From contig JAFGVK010000107.1 of assembly GCA_016938035.1 (NCBI GenBank), forward strand, positions 1 to 64,000: 64,000 bases of DNA. Reading direction: 5' to 3'. The position numbers and the translations under genes are program-made. How positions within the stretch are numbered: position 1 is the first letter of the stretch; the number at the start of each line of letters is the position of its first letter. This DNA is from Deltaproteobacteria bacterium. Lineage in GTDB: Bacteria; Myxococcota_A; UBA796; GCA-2862545. Below the pieces are notes generated by a model. It searched no databases and had not been told where the DNA came from. It saw only the letters and a program-made list of their open reading frames with translations. Shown piece after piece: positions 6,407-9,939 of the stretch.

Positions 6407-6949
6407 TCAGCCCTCGTTCGAATCCCTGCCCGGCAGGTCATCCACCACCCTCACCCACCGCTGCAGCGCCGGCAGCACCTCCTGGCCCCACTCGGGCGCG
6501 GTGCGCAGGGCGGTGAACTGGCGGAACAGCGCCCCGACCACCAGGTAGGCCTCCTCATAGAGGAACATGCGGTCGTGGATCGCCTCCTCGCCGCCCCCCA
6601 CCACCTGCGGGAGCTTGAGCTGGGTGATGTGCAGCTCGGCCCCCTTGAGGGTGAGCAGGTACTCCCGCTCGTCGCGGCGGAAGCCCAGCCGGACCTCGTG
6701 CAGCACCTTTCCCCCGGCCAGCGCGGCGCGGGCCTCCAGGGTGATGGAGGCGTTCTCGCCCGTCATCACCGCCAGGACCTTGGCCTCGTCGGGGTTGCGG
6801 AACGCCAGCCGCTGATCGACCCACACGTTGACCGTACCGATCGGCTCGCCCAGATCGAAGAGGTTCTCGTGCTGCTCGGAGTGCCACCACAGCCAGGTTG
6901 TGAACTCGACCGCTAGGTGCGGGAGGACAGGGGCTCCTTCTGCAGACAT
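6407..6949 (-). CDS. Partner protein of the RdgC-like gene
   Basis: A 180-residue cytoplasmic protein, MSAEGAPVLPHLAVEFTTWL at its start, with no signal peptide or membrane segment. It has aromatic N-terminal stretches (WLWWHSEQHENLFDLGEP) and a mixed alpha/beta pattern. I do not recognise a named family. Its ATG overlaps the stop of the RdgC-like gene in a TGATG, so the two are translationally coupled and probably act together, perhaps as one split protein in the way RdgC has several domains. The gene ends near a strong hairpin. Function inferred only from coupling. Confidence 0.65.
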   Translation of the reverse strand: MSAEGAPVLPHLAVEFTTWLWWHSEQHENLFDLGEPIGTVNVWVDQRLAFRNPDEAKVLAVMTGENASITLEARAALAGGKVLHEVRLGFRRDEREYLLTLKGAELHITQLKLPQVVGGGEEAIHDRMFLYEEAYLVVGALFRQFTALRTAPEWGQEVLPALQRWVRVVDDLPGRDSNEG

Positions 6950-7560
6950 CAGCGCACCCCGTGGAGGTTTGCGGGAGAACCGGCGAGCAGGGACTCGACC
7001 ACTGCCTCGTCCTCGACCCAGTCGAGGGGAGAGAGCGGCACCAGGGTGAGCCCGAAGGTGTTGCGAAAGCGCTTGCGGAACCTGTCCATCATGGACTCGG
7101 AGAGCGAGTGCAGCAGCAGGTATCCCTGGGGGATGTTCCAGCAGGCCTCAGTGACCGCGACCCTGGGGAGGGTGCGCTTCAGCCACTCTGCCTCCAGCGC
7201 CTCCTTCATCTCGGCCTTCACCGAGCCAGGGCAGCGCTCCTTGTTGCGCTCAGCGGCCCACAGCTCACAGCGCTTGGCGAGGGTCGCGGAGAACAGCTTG
7301 GCGGGAAGCGACTTCTTGTCCACCCGCAGGGCGAAGACCGCGTAGTCGCCAAACAGCCAGCGGTCCACGTCGTTGAATTCCGTGTCGAGGAGGTTCTGGT
7401 AGTTACACCAGCCCTCTACCTCCTCCTTTCCGACCTCGGTGAGAGGCTCCTGGAAGGCGTTGGTAGCGAACAGATCGGGGTAGACGGAGCGGAAGTCAGC
7501 GGGGACCTCCCCCTCGACCCTAAGCCTGCGAACCGTCATCGCACCGCCGGTGATACCCAT
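6949..7560 (-). CDS. RdgC-like recombination-associated protein
   Basis: A 203-residue protein resembling the shortened RdgC-like proteins of deltaproteobacteria. The start MGITGGAMTVRRLRVEG, the DVDRWLFGDYAVFALRVDKKSLP segment (written here only as landmarks DRWLFGDY and LRVDKK), and the RFRKRFRNTFGLTLVPLSP end match the general RdgC plan. RdgC binds DNA and modulates RecA filaments in proteobacteria. This version is shorter than the roughly 300-residue enterobacterial protein. The ATG at 7560 has GGAG five bases upstream. It is the first gene of a coupled pair. Assignment rests on pattern recognition and is moderate. Confidence 0.6.
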   Translation of the reverse strand: MGITGGAMTVRRLRVEGEVPADFRSVYPDLFATNAFQEPLTEVGKEEVEGWCNYQNLLDTEFNDVDRWLFGDYAVFALRVDKKSLPAKLFSATLAKRCELWAAERNKERCPGSVKAEMKEALEAEWLKRTLPRVAVTEACWNIPQGYLLLHSLSESMMDRFRKRFRNTFGLTLVPLSPLDWVEDEAVVESLLAGSPANLHGVR

Positions 7561-7617: not shown

Positions 7618-8442
7618 TCAGACCGAGCCCATCTCGTGGAGGGCGTGGCGGAAGACCACCACCTCGCCGCCCTTGGTGTTCATGCTGATCTCGAAGCGCG
7701 AGAACCACCCAACGGTGCCCTGGAGACGGTCCCCCGAGACGAGCACCACCTCTACCTCTGCGGCGGTGTCGAGATACCGGAACAGGCGCGACGTAGAGAT
7801 CGTGTAGCGGTCCTTGGGCGTCGGCGGCGGGACCAGGCCCAGCGCCGCGACCTTCTTGTCGCTCTTGATCGCCTTCTTGATCGCCTTCCAGTCCGCGGGG
7901 GGGTGGGCGTAGAGCATCGACAGCTTGTGGATCTCTCGGGCCTCTTGCTCCTTCGCCGGCGCCATCATCACCGCGTAGGGCTCCACCGAGACGATCGTGC
8001 CCTCGACCACCTCGCCTCCGACCAGCGCGACCCGCAGTGGGGCGCCGGAGACCTGGTAGGCGTCGAGCACGGAGCGGGTGGGGTTCTCTGCCGCGTACAC
8101 GGTCTGGCGGCGACGCCGGAGCACGATCTCCTGGTCAACGTGCCCGCGGGCGATTTGAACCGCGAGCGACCAGGGCAGCTCGTGATCCTTCTGAATGCGG
8201 CGCGCCTTCTCTTGCAGCGCCATGCGCTCGAGCGCCTCACTCAGCTCGACCCGTCCCTGCGCGACGCCCATGGCCAGCTGGAAGGGCATGCCCTGCGCGT
8301 GCAGCTCCTCGGCGCGCTCCTTGAGCCTGGGATCCTCACGACGAACCGGACGGGGCGCCGGCTTCCGCGCAGCGGGCCTCGGCTTCGGCTTGGGAGCGGA
8401 AGGAGTGGGGTTAGGATTGATGTATAGGACCTTTCGCACCAC
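7618..8442 (-). CDS. Double LSm (Hfq-like) RNA-binding protein
   Basis: A 274-residue protein. Residues 1-40 are a Pro/Lys/Arg-rich basic tail. Residues 50-110 hold two copies of a helical motif (GMPFQLAMGVAQG and ELPWSLAVQIARG). Residues 127-180 (APLRVALVGGEVVEGTIVSV) and 215-270 (VEVVLVSGDRLQGTVGWFSR, then VVFRHALHEM) look like two LSm folds. The second closely follows Hfq: Hfq has LVNGxxLQGxIxxFD and YKHAI at the corresponding places. The protein may therefore be an RNA chaperone in which two LSm units sit on one chain. I chose the GTG at 8442, which has GGAG six bases upstream, over an ATG at 8499 with no binding site. It is followed by the RdgC-like pair. Confidence 0.6.
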   Translation of the reverse strand: MVRKVLYINPNPTPSAPKPKPRPAARKPAPRPVRREDPRLKERAEELHAQGMPFQLAMGVAQGRVELSEALERMALQEKARRIQKDHELPWSLAVQIARGHVDQEIVLRRRRQTVYAAENPTRSVLDAYQVSGAPLRVALVGGEVVEGTIVSVEPYAVMMAPAKEQEAREIHKLSMLYAHPPADWKAIKKAIKSDKKVAALGLVPPPTPKDRYTISTSRLFRYLDTAAEVEVVLVSGDRLQGTVGWFSRFEISMNTKGGEVVVFRHALHEMGSV

Positions 8443-8503
8443 GGTTGACTCCGGGAAGGGTGGGATACATATGGATAATCCGGCACTCAGGCAAGCCATT
8501 TGT

Positions 8504-9811
8504 TCAGGCCTGAGCGTAGGCCTCTACCGCCAGGACCAGGTCCGTGAGCGTCTCTCCCGCCACAAAAAGGACCGGGAATTGCTCCTCGCTGAGGCGCTGT
8601 GCCTTCTCGCCGCGCAGTGAGGCCCCCCACACAACCAGCACGTCGGCCCACCCCAGCAGCTCGCTCGGCCCCACGTCAGGCGAGACGAACCGAATCTCCA
8701 CTCGGGCGTCAATCCCGGCCCGGAGCAGGCGCTGCCAGAGCCCTCCTCCGCCCATCACCGCGACCCTGCGGTAGCCGAAGAGCAGCCAGATCTCCCCCAC
8801 CCGCTCCACGCGCTTCTCCAGCTCTGTTGCGCTGGGGAGCTCTGCCCGGTCGAGAGACACCTGCACGCCCGCCCACCCGGTCGGCACCTGCTCGGCGGGG
8901 TCGCTTGAGGTGAGCACCAGGGCTTCCCGGAGGGTGGCGCGCCATCCGGCGGCGTCCAGCACCCGAAGCTGCCCGAGGCGGGCCTTGCCTGCTCGCGTCG
9001 TGAAGAGCGCCGAGACCGCCCGCCCATGCTCCTCCAGCCCCGAGAGGCCTCGCTCCTGGAGCAGCGCGTCGAGGGGGGCGCCTCCCTCCTCCTCTAGCCT
9101 CACCCTCGCCGCGGCGATCTCCTCCACGGCGGAGCGCCTCACCCGCTCGATCTCCTCGCGCGCGCCGGCCTGCATCCGCTCGGCGGTCGCGAGCGCCGCC
9201 GCCGCCGCGTCCACTGCGACCCGCTCGGCGGCGCGCGCCTCCTCCAGCTCGGCCCTCATCCGGGCCAGCTCCGCCTGAAGCGCGGCGCGCTCCAGGTCCT
9301 GCCGTGCCAGGGCGCGGGCGAAGTCCTCTCGATCACGGCCCAGACGGCGCTCACGTGCGCTGAGGTCCTGCTCACGGCGCTGGAGCTCCCGGTCGCGCTG
9401 GGTGACCGTGGGAGCCACCGGGGCGGGGGGAGGCGGTGCGTGACTTGACACCGCGGGCGGCGGCGGGGGAGGCGCCGGCGACAGCGCGGGCGCGGTCCCC
9501 TTGGACGGCGCAGGCCTGGGCCTGTGTGGCTCGCGCCCGTGGCGCTGCACCCCTGGCACCAGCTGCGCCATCACATCCACCTCTTGTGGTGGCGCCTCCA
9601 CCTGTCTGGCCTGGGCGGGGACCGCTAGCGGCGCGATCTTCACCGGCTTCACCCCCCGGCGAGACGCCACGCGCACCTTGTCCGCCATCGCCGTGGGGAG
9701 CATGTCCTCCGGTGAGCGATACCGTTCAATGCCGATCGCGTGGAGAATCCCAAGGACCTCTCCCGGCGTGTGCTGCAGCTCCCTGGCCAGCTTGCGCACC
9801 CGTACAGCCAT
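8504..9811 (-). CDS. IF2-N domain protein with coiled coil
   Basis: A 435-residue protein. Residues 1-50 (AVRVRKLARELQHTPGEVLG and onward) match the IF2_N helical module normally found at the N-terminus of translation initiation factor IF-2. It is not followed by a GTPase. Residues 90-140 are Pro-rich, and 140-250 form a charged coiled coil (RDRELQRREQDLSARERR). The C-terminal 130 residues include VAVMGGGGLW and WADVLVVWGAS, weakly like a Rossmann or DUF2325-type fold. The ATG at 9811 has GGGAGG upstream; the open frame runs back to 9901 without a binding site. Possibly RNA- or ribosome-linked, but function is unknown. It lies just upstream of the LSm gene on the same strand. Confidence 0.6.
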   Translation of the reverse strand: MAVRVRKLARELQHTPGEVLGILHAIGIERYRSPEDMLPTAMADKVRVASRRGVKPVKIAPLAVPAQARQVEAPPQEVDVMAQLVPGVQRHGREPHRPRPAPSKGTAPALSPAPPPPPPAVSSHAPPPPAPVAPTVTQRDRELQRREQDLSARERRLGRDREDFARALARQDLERAALQAELARMRAELEEARAAERVAVDAAAAALATAERMQAGAREEIERVRRSAVEEIAAARVRLEEEGGAPLDALLQERGLSGLEEHGRAVSALFTTRAGKARLGQLRVLDAAGWRATLREALVLTSSDPAEQVPTGWAGVQVSLDRAELPSATELEKRVERVGEIWLLFGYRRVAVMGGGGLWQRLLRAGIDARVEIRFVSPDVGPSELLGWADVLVVWGASLRGEKAQRLSEEQFPVLFVAGETLTDLVLAVEAYAQA

Positions 9812-9939
9812 AGCAGCCTCCCAGCACGACCACATAGCGGCTCCTAGGGCCACGTGCCGCACCGCGGTGCGCATATCCATCATCCACGTCGAGGACACCA
9901 CACAGTGCCCAGAGCAGTGGAGCGGACAGGACCTCGCCT

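Follow-up and report, generated by a model that had tools for sequence, protein, structure and literature searches.

Hfq (PF17209, TIGR02383) is built on an Sm fold with an N-terminal helix and five strands, and the placement of two such domains in a single chain has been described before. The tandem Hfq of Zymomonas mobilis, present also in six other Sphingomonadales, carries two Sm-like domains in one polypeptide, and the available text of that study raises, as a question, a hexamer assembled from three chains (PMC2877685). The same text gives the protein as 60% identical to Escherichia coli Hfq and, in the portion available, mentions no helical head (PMC2877685). Two further relatives consist of a single domain, i.e., the cyanobacterial Hfq-related protein (PF21979, NF047718), a divergent relative of Hfq, and the archaeal Hfq-like protein MJ1435 (2qtx, 5dy9), which is 71 residues long. 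Myxobacteria use sRNAs, yet no Hfq homolog was detected in their sequenced genomes according to one report, in which an alternative chaperone was suggested for the sRNA Pxr (PMC5568312). The protein described here, which we call double-Hfq, is a concrete single-copy candidate for an RNA chaperone in one order. The tandem Hfq principle is already known, and double-Hfq with its helical head is a recognizable variation on it. Literature searches confined to open-licence papers brought up no recognizable description of the family itself.

The gene lies in the window, i.e., the whole 64,000-nucleotide stretch of DNA that was analyzed, and its parts are as follows.

7618..8442, minus strand: double-Hfq gene, about 274 aa; open reading frame and start taken from the sequence and from single-copy orthologs
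8341..8442, minus strand: N-terminal tail, basic and proline-rich; assigned by net charge, the low-confidence part of the model
8080..8340, minus strand: helical domain of two related repeats with six helices; assigned by hhalign of repeat 1 against repeat 2
7903..8079, minus strand: Hfq domain 1 (helix and five strands); strands at residues 132-176, profile match to 1kq1
7798..7902, minus strand: basic linker between Hfq domains 1 and 2; assigned by alignment A1 and net charge
7624..7797, minus strand: Hfq domain 2 with the Sm2 motif F-R-H-A-L; assigned by PF17209 score, superposition and invariant residues

Direct reading of the sequence gives GTG as the start at 8442, with GGAG six bases upstream; an ATG at 8499 is a less likely start because the orthologs begin near the GTG. 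Residue numbers used below refer to a 270-residue construct (window:7621-8430). When compared with Hfq, the protein shares the Sm fold (N-terminal helix followed by five strands), an aromatic residue at the F42 position of both domains and an R-H-A form of the Sm2 motif in domain 2, but it differs in having two diverged domains per chain, a helical head of two repeats and a basic tail, in lacking the rim arginines and in scoring below the TIGR02383 cut-off.

The preliminary description of this DNA had placed a basic tail and two copies of a helical motif ahead of the Sm-like segments, and both are present. The helical motifs are MPFQLAMGVAQG and LPWSLAVQIARG, with a repeat consensus of G-x-P-x-x-x-A-x-x-(V/I)-A-x-G, and hhalign related repeat 1 to repeat 2 at E 7.7e-9, while two unrelated profile pairs run as controls with the same script gave E 0.49 and 0.65. 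Neither Pfam nor PDB sequence searches assigned the helical head to a convincing known family; the weak Pfam matches were to Suv3_N, seen in 5 of the 13 members with E 0.0039 at best, and the PDB search returned nothing below E 0.24. The tail has a net charge of +7 in the window protein (counted over a 30-residue part) and is positive in 26/26 members, as is the linker, which contains the motif R-P-Q-D-R-Y in most members and P-K-D-R-Y in the window protein (alignment A1).

The assignment to Hfq was examined with sequence profiles, applied to the whole protein and to both halves. The whole window protein scored 36.7 bits against Pfam Hfq PF17209 (E 3.2e-9; cut-off 27), and domain 2 alone, which ends in the F-R-H-A-L that had first suggested Hfq for the C-terminal segment, scored 30.3 bits and thus remained above the cut-off. 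Domain 1 of the window protein alone reached only 13 bits (E 0.081), so that its support as Hfq comes from relatives: a distant homolog from family f40 (P0002) scored 34.1 bits as a whole protein, domain 1 containing the highest-scoring stretch, and profile A3, built from 16 family members and searched against PDB sequences, matched Staphylococcus aureus Hfq 1kq1 over positions 82-146, corresponding to domain 1 (E 2.8e-4). Domain 2 of the same profile gave the best PDB sequence matches of the family, to archaeal MJ1435 (5dy9 over positions 192-237, E 1.4e-4; 2qtx over positions 192-236, E 2.2e-4). Glycine G34 of Hfq has its counterparts at residues 144 and 238; the second Sm-like segment, previously judged to lie about 90 residues before the C-terminal one, is spaced from it by 94 residues. 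More specific models were not reached by the window protein, which gave 41.9 bits in two stretches against the TIGR02383 equivalog cut-off of 61.7 and 23.9 bits against the cut-off of 270 of the tandem Hfq model NF010691/PRK14091, which we take to be the Sphingomonadales type. It also fell below the curated cut-offs of both PF21979 and NF047718, although NF047718 gives matches at E ≤1 in 22 of the 26 members.

Domain 1 and domain 2 aligned with each other in register by hhalign (E 2.9e-4, probability 40%) at about 22% identity, in contrast to the 60% that the Zymomonas protein shares with E. coli Hfq. In a tree of 32 domain sequences from 16 proteins, calculated from 57 columns and with mostly unresolved inner forks, all first domains and all second domains formed one clade each (100/100). 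As the tree splits by domain type, domains 1 and 2 diverged before these lineages did. Profiles, fold and tree together show double-Hfq to be a member of the Hfq family that arose by fusion of two Hfq domains, which subsequently diverged. Two other accounts were rejected: a chance likeness of short motifs is ruled out by the Pfam score, the conservation and the model, and a resemblance to Hfq by fold only is ruled out by the sequence profiles, which match Hfq in both domains.

The AlphaFold2 model based on 26 orthologs (pLDDT 93.4, pTM 0.78) consists of six helices (34-128), five strands (132-176), two helices, a further helix (213-222) and five strands (225-269), and a second alignment that included distant members gave an identical layout (pLDDT 94.5, pTM 0.80). 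The first 30 residues, i.e., the tail, had pLDDT of 56-78. The top Foldseek matches were Hfq chains (1kq2_H, E 2.7e-4), and among the matches listed, the best 50, only one was not Hfq, an FXR2 Tudor domain. By VIA, domain 2 superposed on 3hfo_A (Z 7.0, 59 residues, 0.8 Å) and on 6gwk_K (Z 7.0, 59 residues, 1.2 Å), and the second model left this picture unchanged. A Z of 7 is decisive for the Hfq fold when taken with the sequence matches and not by itself; together they strongly support the predicted fold. Structure prediction thus recovered the five-stranded Sm pattern in both domains in both AlphaFold2 runs, with domain 2 also superposed, and together with the Pfam score, hhalign and the profile A3 matches it bears out the original proposal of two LSm/Hfq-like segments in one polypeptide.

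Residue conservation was counted in the 26 orthologs of alignment A1, with equivalences expressed as E. coli Hfq positions (F42, K56, H57, etc.), which we assume as the reference numbering. In domain 2 the F42 equivalent is aromatic, the K56 equivalent is Arg and the H57 equivalent is His, each in 26/26, while the alanine of the Sm2 K-H-A is kept in 25/26 with Arg standing for Lys; positions 38 (Trp) and 41 (Arg) show no variation. In construct numbering, W242, R245, R261 and H262 occur in 26/26. Domain 1 has Tyr (Y152) at the F42 position and Lys (K169) at the K56 position, both in 26/26, with Leu at the H57 position in 18/26 and the A58 equivalent kept in 1/26. The pair K-H is present in domain 1 of four of the six f16 and f40 members (L092, L093, L094 and L068), and L095 and L096 have Asp at the H57 position. 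The equivalents of Q8 and Q41 are mostly replaced, Q8 being Gln in 3/26 first domains and 0/26 second domains. Rim arginines of the E. coli type (R16/R17/R19) were not conserved in either domain among the 26 orthologs; such arginines are not known to be universal in Hfq.

We examined the distribution of the family across related genomes. A profile search of the class was positive for 60 of 71 genomes, comprising 59 of the 63 genomes of its order, where the gene is single copy, and one of the eight outside it. A protein search was positive in 54 of 58 relatives; among the 27 with completeness of 90% or more and contamination of 5% or less, it was positive in all. In 95 genomes drawn evenly from the phylum, the family was present in 17/17 from the order, 5/7 from family f16 and 0/71 from the others. 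The family is conserved across 33 genera; one named relative, the MAG Deltaproteobacteria bacterium isolate M1803, was found in the contig search, and there were no plasmid relatives. The phylum is probably Myxococcota, judging from MYXO-CTERM, a signal typical of myxobacteria, which we observed in 46 of 57 phylum genomes versus 0 of 14 control genomes.

The absence of a canonical hfq, which had been taken as background to the proposal, was checked as well. No stand-alone Hfq was found by PF17209 in the window's own genome (89% complete) or in 282 phylum genomes, where all five matches belong to the double-Hfq family, including the one at L033, which was checked. In the control set the search matched 5 of 14 genomes, E. 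coli and Bacillus subtilis included. PF17209 misses most double-Hfq members and is therefore insensitive to divergent Hfq, while a typical Hfq would be seen; and because the 282 phylum genomes give none, an assembly gap hiding a stand-alone hfq in the own genome is unlikely. Among 24 close relatives ProQ was found in none and CsrA in three (G024, G025 and G029, of families f5 and f6), CsrA being absent from f1. The idea that this protein replaces a missing Hfq thus held in part: no stand-alone Hfq was found, but a replacement general to myxobacteria did not stand, since the protein was found in 0/71 phylum genomes outside the order and f16 and is absent from seven of the eight class genomes outside the order. 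Its presence in all myxobacteria is ruled out by these counts, and in many phylum members neither Hfq nor double-Hfq was detected. Double-Hfq is an old family and not a general myxobacterial Hfq replacement.

The reading that we favor, at about even chances of being correct, is that three chains may form a pseudo-hexamer that binds U-rich single-stranded RNA and does Hfq-like chaperone work in the order. The fold is strongly supported; the ring and the RNA binding we infer. The three chains would close into a pseudo-hexameric Sm ring with domains 1 and 2 alternating, and the proximal pockets would hold RNA single strands by their U-rich ends through residues that are present in the sequences, with domain 2 keeping the stack of F42 and H57 and having Arg for K56, and with Tyr and Lys taking the places of F42 and K56 in domain 1. 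Placed around the ring, the helical domains and basic tails might serve as a positively charged annealing surface in place of the rim arginines, and in this order double-Hfq would perform the RNA-chaperone work that Hfq performs elsewhere. The missing Hfq and ProQ and the scarce CsrA in the relatives support such a role. Several observations weigh against it: the loss of Q8/Q41 and of the rim arginines, Leu at H57 of domain 1 in 18/26, the score below the TIGR02383 cut-off, the DNA genes in the neighborhood and the phylum members that have neither Hfq nor double-Hfq. The family lends itself to testing whether a two-domain chain with specialized halves can build an Hfq ring.

The gene neighborhood bears on whether the ligand is RNA or DNA. 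Two genes follow on the same strand.

6949..7560, minus strand: short RdgC-like protein of 203 aa, separated from the double-Hfq gene by 57 bp; PF04381 29.7 bits, cut-off 25
6407..6949, minus strand: 180-aa protein overlapping rdgC by one base; no Pfam match

By tblastn with the window neighbors, rdgC and the gene for the 180-aa protein adjoin the double-Hfq gene in 32 of 33 testable genomes of the order; 34 distinct order genomes were tested, the window included, with L016 ending at a contig edge and L017 being without these neighbors, and order genomes without a fetched locus stand outside this count. The rdgC gene was absent within the fetched flanks of all seven loci outside the order. The rdgC family matched PF04381 in 14 of 15 members and showed a weak match to the solved RdgC structure 2owl (E 0.0052), whereas 14 of 15 members of the 180-aa family were without a Pfam match, with one weak unrelated hit. 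That the 180-aa protein is the missing second half of RdgC was suspected by eye, by comparison with E. coli RdgC, and found no support in Pfam or PDB. Mutations in E. coli rdgC impair the growth of priB mutants and raise the number of double-strand breaks (PMC9713433). In family f16 the double-Hfq gene abuts priA in 4/4 testable genomes, the fifth ending at a contig edge; the copies directly abutting priA at L092, L094, L095 and L096 are divergent.

No other evidence weighs as heavily against a pure replacement of Hfq as this position beside restart or recombination genes in two separate lineages, and it leads to an alternative that we take seriously though regard as less likely, in which a DNA-side Sm ring would bind nucleoid DNA, single strands or RNA-DNA hybrids at stalled forks and work with RdgC and PriA in replication restart and in the control of recombination. 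A complex of E. coli Hfq with double-stranded DNA has been solved (5uk7), in keeping with this alternative and with the rdgC (32/33) and priA (4/4) adjacency. However, the neighbors differ in family f9, where a Mur-ligase-type gene lies next to the double-Hfq gene, and in family f40 (L033 / L068, G266), where the homolog lies between a rodA-like gene, named by eye, and ftsY; moreover, it is the residues of the U pocket that are conserved. The E. coli hfq operon itself has partners that include DNA-repair genes with no shared function, which likewise speaks against reading function from such neighbors. RNA and DNA roles may both be compatible with the gene context, in which rdgC and priA speak for DNA replication restart no less than for RNA regulation. 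With rdgC and priA recurring as neighbors, a role of Hfq-like proteins in replication restart becomes testable. A combined scenario, in which a Myxococcota lineage would have replaced Hfq by a specialized pseudo-heterohexamer coupled to RdgC/PriA and acting on RNA or RNA-DNA hybrids at stalled forks, we consider unlikely.

A protein-protein adaptor that kept the Sm fold and lost nucleic-acid binding, like the Sm-like Rho inhibitor Rof/YaeO, and that would bind its partner through the helical head, is quite improbable. The loss of the rim and Q8/Q41 equivalents speaks for it, as does the presence of YaeO 6jie in the list of fold matches (Z 6.5, rmsd 2.7 Å, 70 residues). Against it, the YaeO alignment is spread over residues 117-261 and no better than the Hfq matches, the aromatic and basic residues equivalent to those of the pocket do not vary in 26/26, and the tail and linker are basic.

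In the f40 homolog (L033 / L068), Hfq domain 1 is closer to the canonical form. Scans for promoters and terminators were negative. A gene on the same strand lies upstream of double-Hfq (window 8504-9901) and encodes a protein with a weak IF2_N-like N-terminus (E 0.18) and a coiled-coil center, and a similar gene is found upstream in many family f1 loci by tblastn.
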